In this document: in pieces, positions 31,901 to 45,460 of the stretch | How the letters are laid out: each line of letters opens with the position of its first letter | Numbering within the stretch: the stretch's first letter is position 1 | Source: Hyphomicrobium sp. | GTDB lineage: Bacteria > Pseudomonadota > Alphaproteobacteria > Rhizobiales > Hyphomicrobiaceae | DNA: 54,009 nt | Direction: 5' to 3' | Assembly (NCBI GenBank): GCA_022844105.1 | Contig: JALHMJ010000006.1 | Span: 1 to 54,009 of the forward strand | Made by a program: the position numbers and the translations under genes | The notes under the pieces: generated by a model | The model's database searches: none | Seen by the model: only the letters and a program-made list of their open reading frames with translations | Told to the model about the DNA's origin: nothing

Positions 31901-31922
31901 GCGCAAAGTGTAATCCTGAATT
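31895..31922 (+). promoter_or_regulatory. Promoter of the bchG operon
   Basis: TTGACA at 31895-31900, a 16-base spacer, then TGAATT at 31917-31922 as a weak -10. Start of transcription would be near 31929, about 27 bases before the bchG ATG. The -35 is the end of the upstream operator and the -10 lies inside the downstream one, so repressor binding would block RNA polymerase. The plan is the same as at crtE and bchC. Confidence 0.55.
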
Positions 31923-31926
31923 GACA
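31909..31926 (+). promoter_or_regulatory. PpsR/CrtJ operator of bchG (perfect match)
   Basis: TGT-AATCCTGAATTG-ACA is a perfect TGT-N12-ACA site, 29 bases before the bchG start codon. It covers the inferred -10 region. Confidence 0.82.
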
Positions 31927-32864: not shown

Positions 32865-34222
32865 ACCAGGCGCCTCCCCTCGGCTGGATCGGCATCATTC
32901 GTCTCGGTTTCGTGCAAACGGCACTGGGCTCCATCGTCGTCCTCACCACCTCCACGATCAACCGCGTGATGGTCGTTGAACTGGCCCTGGCTGCCGCAAT
33001 TCCAGGTGCGCTGGTTGCTTGGCACTATGCGTTGCAGTTTCTACGGCCGCGATGGGGCTATGGGGCGGATACCGGGGGGCGGCGCACGCCGTGGATCCTG
33101 TTTGGCATCGCGACGCTGGGGATCGGCGGCACCGGCGCGGCGCTTGCCGTCGCGGTGACGGCGGCGAATTTCTGGGCCGGCATGGCGCTGGCCGTTGTTG
33201 CCTTCACGTTCGTCGGGATCGGGGTCGGGGCGTCGGGCACTAATCTGCTGGCATTGCTTGCCACGCGCGTCGACCCGGCCCGGCGCGCACCGGCTGCGAC
33301 GATCGTATGGATGATGATGATTGCCGGCTTCGTCGTCACGACAATCGTTGCCAGTAAATTTCTCGACCCGTTTTCGATGACGCGGCTCGTCGCTGTCAGC
33401 GGCAGCGTTGCTGTTCTCGCCTTTGCCGTTTCATGCCTGGCGCTCTGGGGCATCGAGCCGTCGCGCGCGCCGCACGCTCAGACAAACCAAGTTGCTACCA
33501 GCGCACGAGACGGCGGCGCATTCCGGGCGGCCTTGAGCGAGGTGTGGAACGAACCGCAGTCCCGCCGCTTCACGATATTCGTATTCGTTTCGATGCTTGC
33601 CTACAGCATGCAGGACCTGATTCTGGAGCCGTTCGCCGGTTTTGCCTTCGGCCTCAACCCGGCTCAGTCGACAAAGCTCGCCGGACATCAGCATTTGGGA
33701 GTGTTCATGGGCATGGCGCTTGTCGCCATCGCCGCGCATCCGCGCATCGGGTTTGGCTCCCTGCGGAGTTGGACGATCGGCGGATGTCTTGCGTCCGCTG
33801 TAGCTCTACTTGGGCTCGTACTCGCTGGACTTTTCGCACCCAACTTTCCGCTGACCGCCACCGTCATTGCCCTCGGCTTCGCCAACGGCGCCTTCGCTGT
33901 CGCTGCGATCGGAACGATGATGGCACTGGCCGGCGCAGGACGAGCGAACAGCGAGGGGATGCGCATGGGCCTGTGGGGCGCGGCGCAGGCGATCGCATTT
34001 GGCGCGGGCGGCTTCGTCGGCGCAGCGGCGGCCGATCTCATTCGCACCGTGGTGCTGGAACCAGCCGACGCCTTCACAGTGGTCTTTGCCGCCGAAGCAA
34101 TACTTTTCATCGCGGCGGCCGTTCTGGGTGCGCGTGCCATTGCGGACCCGGCGCAATTGCCAAAACGGCCATTCGTTGAGCCCGACATCCCCCGTGCCGT
34201 CAAGTCCGAACCCGTTTATTGA
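32861..34222 (+). CDS. PucC-family MFS protein between bchG and bchP
   Basis: A 453-residue protein with about 12 membrane segments. GIIRLGFVQTALGSIVVLTT, STINRVMVVELAL and YSMQDLILEPFAGFAFGLNP place it in the BCD/PucC family with LhaA, but it is a clear paralogue. This slot corresponds to the gene called orf428/bch2 in Rhodobacter, between bchG and bchP. A role in handling newly made BChl or in antenna assembly is likely but not shown. It overlaps bchG by ATGA; bchP starts 23 bases after it. Confidence 0.88.
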   Translation: MNQAPPLGWIGIIRLGFVQTALGSIVVLTTSTINRVMVVELALAAAIPGALVAWHYALQFLRPRWGYGADTGGRRTPWILFGIATLGIGGTGAALAVAVTAANFWAGMALAVVAFTFVGIGVGASGTNLLALLATRVDPARRAPAATIVWMMMIAGFVVTTIVASKFLDPFSMTRLVAVSGSVAVLAFAVSCLALWGIEPSRAPHAQTNQVATSARDGGAFRAALSEVWNEPQSRRFTIFVFVSMLAYSMQDLILEPFAGFAFGLNPAQSTKLAGHQHLGVFMGMALVAIAAHPRIGFGSLRSWTIGGCLASAVALLGLVLAGLFAPNFPLTATVIALGFANGAFAVAAIGTMMALAGAGRANSEGMRMGLWGAAQAIAFGAGGFVGAAAADLIRTVVLEPADAFTVVFAAEAILFIAAAVLGARAIADPAQLPKRPFVEPDIPRAVKSEPVY

Positions 34223-34245
34223 ACTCAGAAACAGGTGCTGCAGCC

Positions 34246-35439
34246 ATGGAAACGTTTGATGTTGTTGTTGTAGGTGGCGGACCGGCCGGAGCGACCGCGG
34301 CGACAGACCTCGCCGAGCAGGGTTATTCGGTGCTGCTGCTTGACCGGGCGGGGCGCATCAAGCCGTGCGGCGGCGCCATCCCGCCCATTCTGGTCAAGGA
34401 ATTCGACATTCCCGACGAGCTGATCGTGGCGCGCATCAGGTCGGCTCGAATTGTCTCGCCGAAAGAACGCATAGCCGACATGCCGATCGATGGCGGCTTC
34501 GTCGGCATGGTCGACCGGGAGCACTTTGACGAGTGGCTGCGGGAGCGTGCCGCTGGGGCGGGTGCCCTGCGTCGCACCGGAGCGTTCGAGGATTTGACTC
34601 GCGACGCATCCGGCACCGCCCTCGTGTCCTTCAAGAAGCGTCTCGATGATGGGTTTGAAACGCGCGAAACCGTGCGGGCACGCTTCGTGATAGGTGCCGA
34701 CGGTGCGTCATCAGGGGTCGCCCGTCAGGCGCTGCCAAAGGAAGAGGCGCCGCCGTTCGTGTTCGCCTATCATGAAATTGTGCGCAGTCCGAAGCCCGCC
34801 GAGGGCGCAGCCTTCGAGCCGCGCCGCTGCGATGTCTACTATAGCGGCCGCTATTCACCCGACTTCTACGCCTGGGTATTTCCACACGGCGAGACAACCA
34901 GCATTGGAACCGGGACCGCCCACAAAGGATTTTCGCTGCGCGGGTCGGTCGCCGATCTGAGACAGAGTATCGGAATGGCCGGCCATGAGACCATTCGAAA
35001 GGAAGGCGCGCCTATACCGCTCAGGCCACGCCGCCACTGGGACAACGGCCGGGACGTGATCGTGGCCGGTGACGCTGCCGGCGTTGTTGCTCCCGCGTCG
35101 GGCGAAGGGATCTATTACGCCATGCTGTGTGGGCGCATGGTGGCCGATGCCGTGGCCGAAGCGCTGCAAACGGGGGACGCTCGTTATCTCGCCTCGGCTC
35201 GTAAGCGCTTCATGAAGGCGCATGGACGTGTGTTCTGGGTACTCGGCATTATGCAGCGCTTCTGGTACGCGAACGACGCGCGCCGCGAACGTTTCGTAAC
35301 CATGTGCAAGGATCCGGATGTGCAATCGCTCACCTGGCAAGCCTACATGCATAAGAAGCTCGTCAAGGCGAAACCTATGGCGCACATGCGCATATTCGTG
35401 AAGGATATGGCGCATCTGCTCGGTATGGTGCCACCCTGA
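34246..35439 (+). CDS. bchP: Geranylgeranyl reductase BchP
   Basis: A 397-residue flavoprotein that reduces the geranylgeranyl tail of BChl to phytyl in three NADPH-dependent steps. The FAD motif is DVVVVGGGPAGATAATDLAE, then LLLDRAGRIKPCGGAIPP, and the GD motif is VIVAGDAAGVVAPASGEGIY. The ATG at 34246 puts the FAD motif at the expected distance; an in-frame TTG at 34219 would add nine residues. It lies in the canonical bchG-pucC-bchP order. Confidence 0.96.
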   Translation: METFDVVVVGGGPAGATAATDLAEQGYSVLLLDRAGRIKPCGGAIPPILVKEFDIPDELIVARIRSARIVSPKERIADMPIDGGFVGMVDREHFDEWLRERAAGAGALRRTGAFEDLTRDASGTALVSFKKRLDDGFETRETVRARFVIGADGASSGVARQALPKEEAPPFVFAYHEIVRSPKPAEGAAFEPRRCDVYYSGRYSPDFYAWVFPHGETTSIGTGTAHKGFSLRGSVADLRQSIGMAGHETIRKEGAPIPLRPRRHWDNGRDVIVAGDAAGVVAPASGEGIYYAMLCGRMVADAVAEALQTGDARYLASARKRFMKAHGRVFWVLGIMQRFWYANDARRERFVTMCKDPDVQSLTWQAYMHKKLVKAKPMAHMRIFVKDMAHLLGMVPP

Positions 35440-35520: not shown

Positions 35521-35814
35521 ATGGAAGAGGCTTTCTCCAGCGGCTGGATCATCGACATCATACTTGCGTTGATGGCGGTAGAGGCCGTTGGGCTGATCAT
35601 TCTGCGCCGGGTTCTCGGGCGCGGGCCATCGGTATTGGAACTCCTGGTCTCTTTGGCCGCGGGGTTGTGTCTGATGCTCGCCCTTCGCGTTGCGCTGACC
35701 GGCGGCGCTTGGCAGGCGATCGCGCTGGCACTGGCGGCGTCGCTCGTCGTTCATGTGACGGACTTGCGGCTGCGCTGGTTGCGCCGGACCTGTGCACCCG
35801 ACGAGACGACATGA
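35521..35814 (+). CDS. Small three-helix membrane protein, function unknown
   Basis: A 97-residue protein with three hydrophobic segments: IIDIILALMAVEAVGLIIL, VLELLVSLAAGLCLMLAL and AWQAIALALAASLVVHVTDL, then a short basic tail. I do not recognise a family; it is too short and lacks the Trp pattern of TspO. Its stop overlaps the start of the HAD-CBS gene by ATGA, so the two are co-translated. A stop just upstream in frame fixes the start at or after 35506. The overlapping longer frame on the same strand (35454-35810) is Arg-rich and looks non-coding. Membrane tethering of the HAD-CBS protein is one possibility. Confidence 0.75.
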   Translation: MEEAFSSGWIIDIILALMAVEAVGLIILRRVLGRGPSVLELLVSLAAGLCLMLALRVALTGGAWQAIALALAASLVVHVTDLRLRWLRRTCAPDETT

Positions 35815-37034
35815 CACTGCAGGCGATCATATTGAGGGCCGACGGCGTCATTGCCGAAACCGACGGGCTGGAACGTTCGGTGCTCAATCAGGTCGTGCAG
35901 TCAGCCGGCTTCAAGTGGACCTGCTCGCGCGAGGCTTTCGCAGCGCTTCGTCAGCATGCGCGCCGCCGTGATCGGTATCGCCACTTCGTCCGGCAAAACC
36001 TCGGTATCGATCGCAGCTCGGATGATTTCGAACGCATGATCGACGTGATGATCCGCCACGCCGGAACGGTCGCGCGGACATTCATTGACAAAGACTACCT
36101 CGACGCGCGGCCGGGAGCGCGTGAATTGGCGTCCGCCGCGCGGCAGGAGGGCGTCAAGGTTGCCATTGTCTCGGCGCTCCCCAAAGCCGAGATTGAATAC
36201 TTGATGGCGCACCTGTTCGGTGAGGGCAGCAAGCGTCTCATCGCCTGCATCACTGCGCCCGACACGGTCGACGGGGAAGCCAGTCTGCTCGACGTCTACA
36301 GCCAAGCGGTCGAGAAACTGGAGGTTGATCCGGCCTCCTGCCTTGCACTGGAAGCCACGCTGGAGGGGGCCAACACGGCCCGGCGAGCCGGGGTCGCCGC
36401 GGTGATCCTCCTTGGACATCACGAACCGAGCGAAGACGTTCTCTTCGCCGTCAACGAACTCCCCGACCTCATCGGCCGCGACGAGAAGCGTGAGGCCATG
36501 ATCGTGACACCCGGCGACGGGTTTGAAATACTCGCAGCACTGCGGCGTGCACACGCCGGCTACTTCGACGTCTTCGGGGGGCTACACAGGAGCTACGCCA
36601 TGAAAGTCTCCGATATCCTGAAAGACAAAGGCTCAGCGGTGAAAGCCGTCAAAGCTTCCGATTCCATCCTTATGCTCAGCCAGAAATTGAAGTCCGACGC
36701 GGTCGGCGCCATGGTGGTGATCGGCGCTTCGGGCAAGCTTGAAGGCATCATATCCGAGCGAGATATCGCCAACGGGCTGGCCACGCACGGCGATGCGCTG
36801 ACGCGCATGCTGGTCGGCGATTTGATGACGCGGGCCGTCGTCACCTGCTCACCCGACGACCCGATCGCCAACGTTGCCAAAATCATGACCCAGCGCCGTT
36901 TCCGTCATATGCCCGTCCAGCAGGACGGAGAACTGATCGGCGTCGTCAGTATCGGCGATGTCCTGAAGCATCGCCTCGACGAACTGCAACTTGAAACCAA
37001 TGTGCTGCGCGACTTCGTCATCGCGCGGGGCTAA
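35811..37034 (+). CDS. Degenerate CbbY-like HAD domain fused to a CBS pair
   Basis: A 407-residue two-part protein. Residues 1-263 resemble CbbY-type HAD phosphatases (AIILRADGVIAETDGLE and the later KVAIVSALPKAEIEYL and CLALEATLEGANTARRAG). The nucleophile Asp of motif I is Arg9 (LRADG in place of DxDG), the Lys of motif III is missing, and the motif IV acidic pair is changed from ED to EA, so it is probably catalytically dead. Residues 264-407 are a complete CBS pair of the kind usually found alone at about 144 residues; such pairs bind adenosyl ligands. CAGGAG lies 7 bases before an in-frame ATG at 36600, so a free CBS protein may also be made. Confidence 0.82.
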   Translation: MTLQAIILRADGVIAETDGLERSVLNQVVQSAGFKWTCSREAFAALRQHARRRDRYRHFVRQNLGIDRSSDDFERMIDVMIRHAGTVARTFIDKDYLDARPGARELASAARQEGVKVAIVSALPKAEIEYLMAHLFGEGSKRLIACITAPDTVDGEASLLDVYSQAVEKLEVDPASCLALEATLEGANTARRAGVAAVILLGHHEPSEDVLFAVNELPDLIGRDEKREAMIVTPGDGFEILAALRRAHAGYFDVFGGLHRSYAMKVSDILKDKGSAVKAVKASDSILMLSQKLKSDAVGAMVVIGASGKLEGIISERDIANGLATHGDALTRMLVGDLMTRAVVTCSPDDPIANVAKIMTQRRFRHMPVQQDGELIGVVSIGDVLKHRLDELQLETNVLRDFVIARG

Positions 37035-37062: not shown

Positions 37063-38085
37063 ATGCCCGCTATTTTTCCTTTCTCCGCCATCGTCGGCCA
37101 AGACGAAATGAAACTGGCCTTACTCATCGCCGCGATCGACCAATCCGTCGGCGGCGTTCTCGTGTTCGGCGACCGGGGAACAGGAAAATCGACGACAGTG
37201 AGGGCCTTGGCGGCGCTGTTGCCGCCGATGCCCGTCGTTGGCGGATGCCGCTTCAATTGCGCACCCGGCACGGGTTGCACGCATACGCAAGGTGCCGAAA
37301 CGGCCGCCACAGCGCCTGTCCCGGTTGTCGATCTGCCGCTGGGAGCGACGGAAGACCGGGTCGTCGGCGCGCTGGATCTCGAACGCGCGCTCGTGCACGG
37401 CCAAAAGGCATTCGAACCGGGGCTGCTGGCGCGCGCGCACCGGGGCTTTCTCTATATCGACGAGGTGAACCTGTTGGAGGACCACCTTGTCGATCTTCTG
37501 CTCGATGTCGCCGCGTCGGGGGAGAATGTGGTCGAACGGGAAGGGCTGAGCGTGCGGCATCCGGCCAAATTCGTTCTGGTCGGCACCGGCAATCCCGAGG
37601 AAGGCGAACTGCGTCCGCAGCTTCTCGACCGGTTCGGCATGTCGGTCGAAGTGCGCACGCCTGAAGATCTAAAGACGCGGATTGAAGTGGTTCGTCGGCG
37701 CGATGATTTCGAGCGAAATCCTGACGTATTCAATGCGCGCTTTGCCGACGACGAGCAGCGGCTGCGCAACCATATTGTTGCCGCGCGCGAGCGCGTACCG
37801 GGAATTCCAACCAGCGATCATGCGCTGGAACGCGCCGCACAGCTGTGTTCGGACGTCGGCACCGACGGCCTGCGGGGTGAACTCACTCTTGTCCGCGCGG
37901 CTCGTGCCGTCGCTGCCCTCGAAGGCGCCAGCGAGATCGACGATGCTCATCTACGCCGGGTCGCGCCGATGGCCCTGCGGCACAGATTGCGCCGGACGCC
38001 GCTATCGAGCCCGGATTCTGGTGCGCGCGTCGAACGTGCGGTGGCTGATCTCTTCGGCGGGTCGGGAGAGCGGCTCGTCATATGA
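37063..38085 (+). CDS. bchI: Magnesium chelatase ATPase subunit I
   Basis: A 340-residue AAA+ ATPase that forms the ring driving Mg insertion with BchD and BchH. Walker A is VLVFGDRGTGKSTTVRALAA, Walker B is RGFLYIDEVNLLEDHLVD, and the sensor region is FVLVGTGNPEEGELRPQLLD. The ATG at 37063 gives the family start PFSAIVGQDEMK. It is 28 bases after the HAD-CBS gene and overlaps bchD by ATGA. Confidence 0.97.
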   Translation: MPAIFPFSAIVGQDEMKLALLIAAIDQSVGGVLVFGDRGTGKSTTVRALAALLPPMPVVGGCRFNCAPGTGCTHTQGAETAATAPVPVVDLPLGATEDRVVGALDLERALVHGQKAFEPGLLARAHRGFLYIDEVNLLEDHLVDLLLDVAASGENVVEREGLSVRHPAKFVLVGTGNPEEGELRPQLLDRFGMSVEVRTPEDLKTRIEVVRRRDDFERNPDVFNARFADDEQRLRNHIVAARERVPGIPTSDHALERAAQLCSDVGTDGLRGELTLVRAARAVAALEGASEIDDAHLRRVAPMALRHRLRRTPLSSPDSGARVERAVADLFGGSGERLVI

Positions 38086-42419: not shown

Positions 42420-43503
42420 GGATATGCGGCGACAGGCCGTCGATCTTGATGACTGCCGCGAGAAGCTCGCAAACGGGTCGCGAACGTTTCTCGCCGCCTC
42501 GCGCCTGCTGCCCCGCCGCGTTCGCGATCCAGCGATCGCGCTCTACGCCTTCTGCCGGGAAGCCGACGACATCATCGACATCGGAGGGGCGACGGAGGGC
42601 AACCTCGCGCTGCTGACCGATCGGCTCGACGGTATTTATCGTCACGCTCCCTGCGCGTCAGCGACCGACCGGGCGTTTTGCGCGGTCGTGCATAAATTCG
42701 AAATCCCACGCACCCTGCCCGATGCTCTGATCGAGGGCTTCGCGTGGGATGCTGAGGGCCGGCGCCATGAAACCTTCGCCGATGTTCTTGCCTATTCCAC
42801 ACGCGTGGCCGGCAGCGTCGGCGCGATGATGGCGCTGCTCATGTGCGCGCGCGAACGTTCGCAGCTGGCGCGGGCATGCGATCTGGGCATTGCGATGCAG
42901 CTGTCGAATATCGCCCGCGATGTCGGCGAGGATGCCCGTTCCGGACGCATCTATCTGCCGCTCACGTGGATGCGAGACGAGGGACTTGATCCAGACGCAT
43001 GGCTTGCCAACCCGGTCCACTCACCGGCGATTGCCAGAATCGTCGAAAGGCTGCTGGATGGAGCCGACAGCCTCTACCGTCGCGCCGCGCGCGGGATCTC
43101 CGCGCTGCCGGTCGACTGCCGCGCTGGCATTTTTGCCGCCGCCTATCTTTACGGAGAGATCGGCAACGAAGTGCGCCGCAACGGTCACGATTCCATTTCG
43201 CGGCGCGCGGTGGTTCCGGCCAAGCGCAAAATCGAGCTTGCGGCCAAGGCTGCTCTTTCCGCATCCCTGTCACTGACGCAGGCGCGCGTGGTCATCCCCG
43301 ATCGCGTCCCGGAAGCGGCTTATCTCTTGGATGCTGTGCACCCGCACGCTGCCCATGCGCCGAACCCGGCATGGTGGAACCTGCCGGCGCGGACCGTGCG
43401 CGTTATCGAACTCTTCGAACGACTTGAATTGCGCGATCGCGACGCCCAGCACGCGCGTCTCTCGCACATGCAATCCGCCTCACCTTCGCCTGCTGAAGCC
43501 TAG
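42400..43503 (+). CDS. crtB: Phytoene synthase
   Basis: A 367-residue enzyme of the squalene/phytoene synthase family. It condenses two geranylgeranyl diphosphates to phytoene. The Asp-rich motifs are [13 protein letters not shown] and [19 protein letters not shown], and [16 protein letters not shown] is the typical N-terminal block. The start lies within the 3' end of crtI (20-base overlap), so the pair is translated together. Confidence 0.96.
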
Positions 43504-43519
43504 AACCGGAGAACCGGCC

Positions 43520-45460
43520 ATGAACGCACATATCGGTCAGCCCGTCCCTTCCCCGAAACCGCTGCTTGACAAGGTGCGCGTGCCCGCCGACCTGCGCGCC
43601 CTGCCGGAGCGCGACATGAAGCAGCTCGCCGAAGAATTGCGGCAGGAAACCATTGAAGCGGTCTCGGTCACCGGCGGGCACCTCGGCGCGGGGCTTGGCG
43701 TCGTCGAGTTGACGCTGGCCATCCACCGCGTCTTCGATACGCCGCGCGACCGGCTGATCTTCGACGTCGGCCACCAATGCTATCCGCACAAGATCCTGAC
43801 CGGCCGCCGCGATCGCATTCGGACACTGCGGACCGGCGGCGGATTATCGGGTTTCACGAAACGATCCGAGAGCGAGTACGATCCATTCGGCGCCGCGCAC
43901 TCCTCGACATCCATTTCGGCGGGCCTCGGCATGGCCGTGGCGCGTGACCTCAAGGGTGGCGACAACCACGTCATCTGCGTCATCGGCGACGGCGCAATGA
44001 GCGCTGGCATGGCGTACGAGGCGATGAACAATGCCGGCGCGCGCGATGAACGTCTCATCGTTATCCTCAACGATAACGATATGTCGATCGCGCCACCGAC
44101 GGGAGCGCTGTCGAAGTATCTGACGCGAGCGACGTCAAGCGGGTCTTACCTGCAGTTGCGTGATTTCGCCAAGCAGCTCGCCAAGCGGCTGCCGAAAAAG
44201 TGGGAACGCCGGGCTGCGCGCGTCGAGGAGATGTCGCGAACCATCATGTCGGGCGGCATCTGGTTTGAAGAACTCGGCTTCTACTATGTCGGTCCGGTCG
44301 ATGGCCACGATCTCGACCAGCTGCTGCCGGTCTTGAAGAACGCGCGCGATGCCGAGCAGGCACCAATCCTGGTTCACGTCATTACGCAAAAGGGCAAAGG
44401 CTACGCGCCTGCCGAGGCATCGGCCGACAAATATCATGGTGTTGCGAAGTTCGATGTCGTGACCGGCGCCCAGGTGAAGCCTAAGGCGGCAGCACCCAGC
44501 TACACGAAAGTGTTCGCAAACGCCCTTGTGGCCGAGGCTAAAAAGGACGAGCGCATCGTTGCGGTCACGGCGGCCATGCCGGAGGGCACCGGACTGGATG
44601 TTTTTGGCCGGGCGTTTCCTGAGCGCATCTTCGATGTCGGCATCGCTGAACAACATGCGGTGACATTCGCGGCGGGGCTCGCCACCGAAGGGTTAAAGCC
44701 CTTTGCAGCGATCTATTCGACGTTCCTTCAGCGTGGCTATGACCAGGTTGTGCACGATGTTGCAATCCAGAGCCTGCCGGTGCGCTTCATGATCGATCGC
44801 GCGGGGCTGGTCGGCGCTGACGGCCCGACGCATGCTGGCTCGTTCGATCTTGCCTACCTCGGCTGTCTGCCGGGCTTCGTCATCATGGCCGCGGCGGATG
44901 AATCAGAGCTTGTGCACATGGTCGCGACCGCCGCTGCCATCGATGACCGTCCTTCGGCCGTACGGTATCCGCGCGGTGACGGCGTCGGCGTCGATTTGCC
45001 GGCGGAAGGGGTACCGCTGCCGATCGGCAAGGGCCGCATCGTGCGTGAAGGCGACACGGTTGCGATCCTGTCGCTGGGTACACGGCTGGCAGAAGCGCAA
45101 AAGGCGGCCGATCAGCTGGCAGCCCACGGCTTGTCGACCACCGTTGCCGATGCGCGCTTCATGAAGCCGCTGGACGAGGACCTTATGCGCCAACTCGCCC
45201 GCGATCACGAGGTGCTGATTACGATCGAGGAAGGCAGCGTCGGCGGGTTCGGCAGCCACGTGCTGGAATTCCTGTCGCGCGAGGGGCTGATGGATCGGGG
45301 CTTGAAGGTTCGGACAATGACGTTGCCCGACACGTTCATCGATCATGACAAGCCCGAGGTGATGTACGCCCAAGCCGGCCTCGACGCCGCGGCCATCGTG
45401 GCGAAGGTGTTCGCAGCTCTCGGCAGAACGGAATTAGACGGAGGCGCGTTGCGCGCCTGA
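43520..45460 (+). CDS. dxs: 1-Deoxy-D-xylulose-5-phosphate synthase
   Basis: A 646-residue TPP enzyme that makes DXP from pyruvate and glyceraldehyde-3-phosphate, the entry step of the MEP isoprenoid pathway. Signatures are [18 protein letters not shown], the TPP/Mg motif [20 protein letters not shown], and the catalytic-Glu motif [18 protein letters not shown]. The location 16 bases after crtB links precursor supply to carotenoid and BChl-tail demand. Confidence 0.97.

Follow-up and report, generated by a model that had tools for sequence, protein, structure and literature searches.

The window, that is, the whole 54,009-nucleotide stretch of Hyphomicrobium sp. DNA that was analysed, carries a reading frame in which a HAD domain of inactive appearance is joined to a pair of CBS domains, and the question it raises is what such a protein does between bchP and bchI. 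A preliminary description took it for part of a membrane-bound sensor acting on Mg chelatase or bacteriochlorophyll synthesis. The features of the locus are as follows.

35811..37034, + strand: HAD-CBS fusion gene (P0001), 407 aa, from the ORF call and Pfam; conserved in the window's genus
35811..36560, + strand: HAD part, CbbY-like predicted pseudophosphatase, approximately residues 1-250 (4uar, E 1.2e-34; motif alignment)
36588..36599, + strand: AGGAG and spacer preceding the CBS part's in-frame ATG, a candidate internal ribosome-binding site (six of six genus genomes; codon resampling)
36600..37034, + strand: CBS pair from Met264, possibly a separate 144-aa product (Pfam; 3fhm, E 1.1e-22)
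35521..35814, + strand: P2, 97-aa three-helix membrane protein (ORF, model, family comparison)
34219..35439, + strand: bchP, context (Pfam, FAD oxidoreductase families)
37063..38085, + strand: bchI, context (PF01078, 1.5e-16)
31909..31926, + strand: TGT-N12-ACA palindrome upstream of bchG (pattern count)

From the window's reading frames and their Pfam matches, the order on the + strand is bchG, a pucC-like gene, bchP, P2, HAD-CBS, bchI, bchD and bchO. Several names in this run are assumed, with synteny as a guide, among them that of bchP, which Pfam assigns to FAD oxidoreductase families. It can be seen from the coordinates that the P2 and HAD-CBS genes share the ATGA at 35811-35814 and that the bchI ATG at 37063 lies 28 bases beyond the HAD-CBS stop, which ends at 37034; this agrees with the spacing given for the 97-residue protein and bchI in the preliminary description. 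The ATGA overlap is present in all six genomes of the window's genus, in which HAD-CBS is probably co-transcribed, and so made together, with the bchG, pucC, bchP, P2, bchI, bchD and bchO genes. We also considered TGT-N12-ACA sites as evidence for an operon. After the palindrome at 31909..31926, which we take to be PpsR/CrtJ-like, no such site was found before 40878; the window holds 10 sites against 4.79 expected, and as many were obtained in 4 of 100 shuffles. The sites are thus only weakly above chance and were set aside.

Kinship and motifs of the HAD part

Pfam recognises PF00702 (5.3e-08) and PF13419 (2.7e-06) in the HAD region. A profile built from the HAD parts of 11 fusions, when searched against solved structures, matched CbbY of R. 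sphaeroides (4uar, 1.2e-34) and of Arabidopsis (6.7e-28), with the first non-CbbY match at 2.8e-09. The AlphaFold model of the fusion protein (35 sequences; mean pLDDT 78.8, pTM 0.57) has a HAD fold with a cap, and Foldseek again placed CbbY 4uar first for the HAD part (4.3e-13, TMt 0.81). We conclude, on the grounds of profile and fold comparison, that the HAD part is descended from or close kin to CbbY, an enzyme described in passages of PMC10212915 as the phosphatase of xylulose-1,5-bisphosphate (XuBP). Like the CbbY proteins of R. sphaeroides (4uar/4uas) and Arabidopsis (4uav), the fusion has a HAD core and cap, the AETE stretch, and Trp36, Arg55 and Arg100, which are kept together with a further pocket residue, Glu16. 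Unlike them, it carries a C-terminal CBS pair, has Arg for the nucleophile Asp, lacks the Lys of motif III and the Asp of motif IV, and occurs in a genus without Rubisco.

The altered motifs had been read from the window at the outset, and those readings are confirmed: motif I is ILRADG, with Arg9 at the place of the nucleophile and Asp11 kept, motif III has no Lys, and motif IV is LEAT, in which Glu181-Ala182 stands for Glu-Asp. We then compared 24 aligned intact fusions, six from photosynthesis clusters and 18 not, with 30 stand-alone homologues of CbbY, selected by eye. Position 9 is Arg in 24/24 fusions, none of which has the nucleophile Asp, and Asp in 30/30 CbbY homologues, so this change is not a matter of chance. 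Likewise, Lys157 of motif III and Asp182 of motif IV are found in all 30 CbbY homologues and in none of the 24 fusions, although a Lys at the neighbouring column 156 in 11 of the fusions makes the motif III alignment uncertain and the loss of Lys less sure there. The acid/base Asp11 is present in 23/24 fusions and 30/30 CbbY homologues, and Glu181, Arg55 and Arg100 are found throughout both sets. At the motif II column 121 the fusions have Ser (19), Thr (1), Ala (2) or Gly (2), with Ser121 in the window. The claim that three of the four catalytic motifs are lost therefore stands for motifs I (nucleophile), III (Lys) and IV (Asp), but has to be refined in that Asp11 is kept and motif II is Ser or Thr in 20/24.

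Five arginines, Arg9, Arg55, Arg82, Arg100 and Arg104, are invariant in all 24 fusions, and of these Arg9 and Arg104 are new to the fusions; Arg55 presumably matches the substrate-phosphate Arg49 of beta-phosphoglucomutase. Taken together, the residues support the prediction of a catalytically dead domain that is selectively kept. The fusion set omits the window itself, the frameshifted L031 and the divergent L189. Left out of the CbbY set were the dead, unfused L055 and L092, two repeats of L052 (L105 and L166), L178, in which motif III is altered although the Asp is kept, and L189-L191 and L196-L200 (other HADs, repeats or unaligned). In the most divergent fusion, L189 from genome G056, HAD and CBS are likewise in one frame and Arg again occupies the place of the nucleophile. 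We note separately that motif I of this protein (G056:C5) reads VRLEGG and that its CBS part falls together with the CBS found in the G057 cluster.

The CBS pair, its candidate internal start and selection on both parts

The CBS pair is complete, as had been described, with two PF00571 stretches in tandem (1e-21), and it is joined to the HAD part in a single frame of 407 residues. Because the fused frame also occurs in further genomes of two genera, an assembly artefact joining two genes was rejected. In a sequence search of solved structures the CBS part best matches Atu1752 (3fhm; E 1.1e-22, approximately 40% identity), and by fold the model agrees with 3fhm at TMt 0.89-0.95 and rmsd 1.0-1.3; 5nmu, which bears on the comparison with cyanobacterial CBS-CP12 below, was also among the structure matches. 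The fold is common to the stand-alone CBS-pair proteins Atu1752 and NE2398 (2rc3), but here the pair sits behind a HAD that is predicted to be dead. The ligand-type residues Asp318, Ser380 and Asp383 are invariant in 12/12 aligned fusions. No CBS paralogue adjoining a HAD was found in two stretches of the same genome that were examined.

Over the five intact genes of the window's genus, the frameshifted sixth being excluded, dN/dS averages 0.094 (mean dS approximately 1.0) in the HAD part and 0.074 (mean dS approximately 0.6) in the CBS part. We conclude from these ratios that both parts are under purifying selection, and on the same ground a pseudogene or chance frame was rejected. In the sixth genome, G003, the HAD frame is interrupted about 41 residues in by a deletion of approximately 10 nt, with the CBS part left intact; this may mean that the HAD is not essential, or that the MAG is in error. 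The frameshift lies at L087 9141-9302.

The CBS part also appears to have a start signal of its own. The in-frame Met264 is preceded by AGGAG in all six genomes of the window's genus, and six of the seven degenerate codons around it are identical across the five intact genes (P 0.0001 when codons for the same amino acids were resampled from the rest of the gene, the rows being partly related, with L027 and L029 95% identical, and so not independent). The Arg codon at this site is the rare AGG, used for 7 of the 161 arginines of the five genes, and five of those seven uses are at this site. In the sister genus g11 (Hyphomicrobium type), GGAG precedes the internal ATG in 16/20 fusions and is absent in 4/20; where present, it mostly falls within adjoining Trp and Ser codons. 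This conserved internal Shine-Dalgarno sequence and ATG is a new finding, and suggests either that a free CBS product is also made from the internal start or that the signal is a relic of a formerly separate gene.

A reading that would make much of these observations is that the CBS pair, free or fused, is the working part and the HAD a decaying passenger left over from a former cbbY. It would explain why the CBS part survives where the HAD frame is broken in G003, why CBS is more conserved than HAD (93% against 80% identity) and has its own start signal, and why G057 holds, at the same place, a CBS-pair gene without a HAD (L103 8450-11429, where P2, a GAPDH gene and the lone CBS-pair gene stand directly before bchI). 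However, decay is difficult to reconcile with a HAD dN/dS of 0.094 at a mean dS of about 1 over five genomes, with the five invariant arginines of the 24 fusions, and with the retention of the HAD in 21 g11 genomes, and we consider this reading unlikely.

Distribution and the membrane protein P2

The HAD part gave 42 matches in 103 genomes of the family. The fusion is not confined to one genome: it was found in 6/6 genomes of the window's genus (broken in G003) and, among the matches listed, in 21 genomes of g11 (G046-G067 except G063, whose row is absent from those matches; G056 was added to a first 20). Patterns drawn from the alignment of the fusion HADs were run over 84,980 GTDB species and returned 17 loci, of which 14 carry the title Hyphomicrobium sp. 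or H. facile and three 'Proteobacteria bacterium'; the patterns contain RADG, so this count leaves room for fusions with other versions of motif I. Across 397 genomes of the order the fusions scored 366-390 bits; after them, the highest score was 168 bits. The culturable Hyphomicrobium facile DSM 1565 is among the carriers of the fusion gene.

The reaction centre (PF00124) is present in 28 of the 103 family genomes, which include 6/6 of the window's genus and 8/21 of the g11 fusion genomes; the other 13 gave no match, and 11 of these are at least 97% complete. At 10 of the 17 named GTDB loci there was no photosynthesis gene within the approximately 10 kb of the fetched flanks. In H. facile (L116) the fusion lies beside a LysR/FAD-oxidase group and flagellar genes, and at L122 it lies beside FIST and histidine kinase genes. 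The fusion is therefore widely retained in phototrophic and non-phototrophic Hyphomicrobium-type genomes alike. Since it occurs in g11 genomes without a reaction centre, specificity for Mg chelatase or bacteriochlorophyll is unsupported, and since non-photosynthetic relatives keep it too, HAD-CBS probably acts as a general regulator and not as a switch reserved for chlorophyll.

The P2 family has 33 members with invariant Glu21, Gly48, Ala54, Leu71 and His78, and the P2 model shows three long helices and one short (pLDDT 91). No known family model matched consistently, stray matches being confined to 1/33 members each, and against the PDB there was no sequence match at E 1 and no significant fold match. 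P2 lies within 1.3 kb after bchP, often behind tspO, at 41/51 bchP loci, whereas a same-strand HAD is nearby at 7/51; by subtraction, 34 of the 41 loci have P2 beside bchP without such a HAD. The 51 loci omit L152 (contig end) and seven loci repeating others, some were fetched because of P2 or the HAD, and a strand match was not required for P2. Among loci picked from bchP matches alone, P2 was present in 26 of 36 usable ones, hand-picked from 72 genomes with bchP matches. P2 was found in 20/367 genomes of the class, and at 14/18 further P2 loci bchP was in the flanks. Within the family, a reaction centre is present in 26 of the 27 genomes with P2 at E 1e-6 or better, and P2 in 26 of the 28 with a reaction centre. 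As P2 follows bchP mostly in the absence of a HAD, it is not a dedicated partner of HAD-CBS; it is a photosynthesis-cluster gene, more likely tied to bchP/tspO than to HAD-CBS and, though adjoining the latter, most likely a separate bchP-associated gene. We would guess at a BchP anchor or a pigment-handling protein. An unnamed gene of so many alphaproteobacterial photosynthesis clusters deserves a function; no paper on P2 or on the HAD-CBS fusion was found among the open-licence literature.

These data bear directly on the original proposal that P2 and HAD-CBS together form a membrane-tethered adenylate sensor tuning Mg chelatase or bacteriochlorophyll synthesis. In its favour, the pair stands between bchP and bchI throughout the genus (6/6 genomes), the order bchP-P2-HAD-CBS-bchI recurs in the g11 genomes G052 and G061, the genes overlap at ATGA in all six, and the CBS pair is intact. 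However, 13/21 fusion-bearing g11 genomes have no reaction-centre match, the phototrophs G054, G055 and G057 have the fusion on a different contig from the photosynthesis cluster, and 34/41 of the P2-bchP loci have no same-strand HAD nearby. Tethering through P2 is unsupported, the sensor as proposed is quite improbable, and Mg chelatase is an unlikely target.

Origin and possible function of the fusion

No Rubisco (PF00016) match was found in the six genomes of the window's genus, and of the 19/103 family genomes with Rubisco the g11 share is 2/22 (G046-G067), which fits loss of the XuBP job. Two stand-alone CbbY genes, in G093 and G026, are near Rubisco. Genomes of three other genera (G042, G075 and G095) have a stand-alone HAD after bchP in the cluster, followed by two CBS-pair genes, with Gly, Ala and Gly, respectively, at the place of the nucleophile; the occurrence of unfused dead HADs beside CBS genes in three genera supports a functional link between the two domains. 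These CbbY-like HAD and CBS genes lie at L090 704-2524, L091 4715-6484 and L092 7509-9093.

In the HAD tree the fusions group together (17 rows including the divergent L189, 95/90), and the three unfused dead HADs form a group (98/99) apart from them, among CbbY, CbbY itself being a single group in 33% of 200 bootstrap trees. The nucleophile losses in fused and unfused HADs may, on this topology, be independent. We had also asked whether the trees prove a single fusion event; although the fusions come together in the HAD tree, their CBS parts from g11 and from the window's genus are left unjoined, or joined without support, in the CBS tree, and this claim was dropped. Passages of PMC12700997 place a CBB gene set including cbbY inside the photosynthesis cluster of Acaudatibacter, and in G105 an intact cbbY lies approximately 1.4 kb from bchP on the opposite strand. 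It is therefore possible that the fusion HAD arose from a cbbY carried in the photosynthesis cluster.

The reading that we prefer is that a CbbY-type HAD exchanged its nucleophile Asp for Arg, lost the Lys of motif III and the Asp of motif IV, kept its fold, acid/base Asp and pocket, and became joined to a CBS pair. The HAD part would then bind a phosphorylated sugar and leave it uncleaved, the CBS pair, in which ligand-type residues are kept, would bind an adenine nucleotide, and the two would jointly switch a partner according to carbon and energy state. The internal start would probably yield a free CBS pair, and this might associate with the CBS part of full-length molecules. We put the chances of such a pseudophosphatase/CBS regulator at about even. 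An active enzyme of unusual chemistry, with the Arg9 HAD catalysing through Asp11 and Glu181, could draw on Asp11 in 23/24 fusions, Glu181 in 24/24 and strong purifying selection, but given established HAD chemistry the simultaneous lack of nucleophile, Lys and Mg-binding Asp rules out phosphoryl transfer, and this alternative is highly improbable.

A more tentative extension of the pseudophosphatase/CBS reading, possible but on balance doubtful as a whole, is that on loss of Rubisco a CbbY, perhaps cluster-encoded, became a non-cleaving sugar-phosphate sensor fused to an adenylate-sensing CBS pair, a carbon/energy regulator in two forms, the full-length protein and an internally initiated free CBS, that is general in non-phototrophs and tied into the bchG-bchO operon here, and that a parallel, unfused dead-HAD/CBS pair arose in the three other genera. 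If this is true, a Rubisco-repair enzyme has been turned into a signalling protein, its catalytic Asp swapped to an Arg that was then strictly kept, and CBS serves as the output or second input of a converted CbbY.

Two known systems offer analogies only. In cyanobacterial CBS-CP12, according to passages of PMC9514657, a CBS domain is fused to a Calvin-cycle accessory protein and is thought to be regulatory; CP12, however, is not a HAD, and Pfam gave no CP12 match in the window protein. PRL pseudophosphatases are described in published abstracts as working with the CBS pair of CNNM Mg transporters, but these are separate, eukaryotic proteins and PRL has a PTP fold. Elsewhere in the window, at 43331-45460, there is a long ORF that many of the fetched clusters also have next to their crt/bch genes, with 58-88% identity over much of its length.
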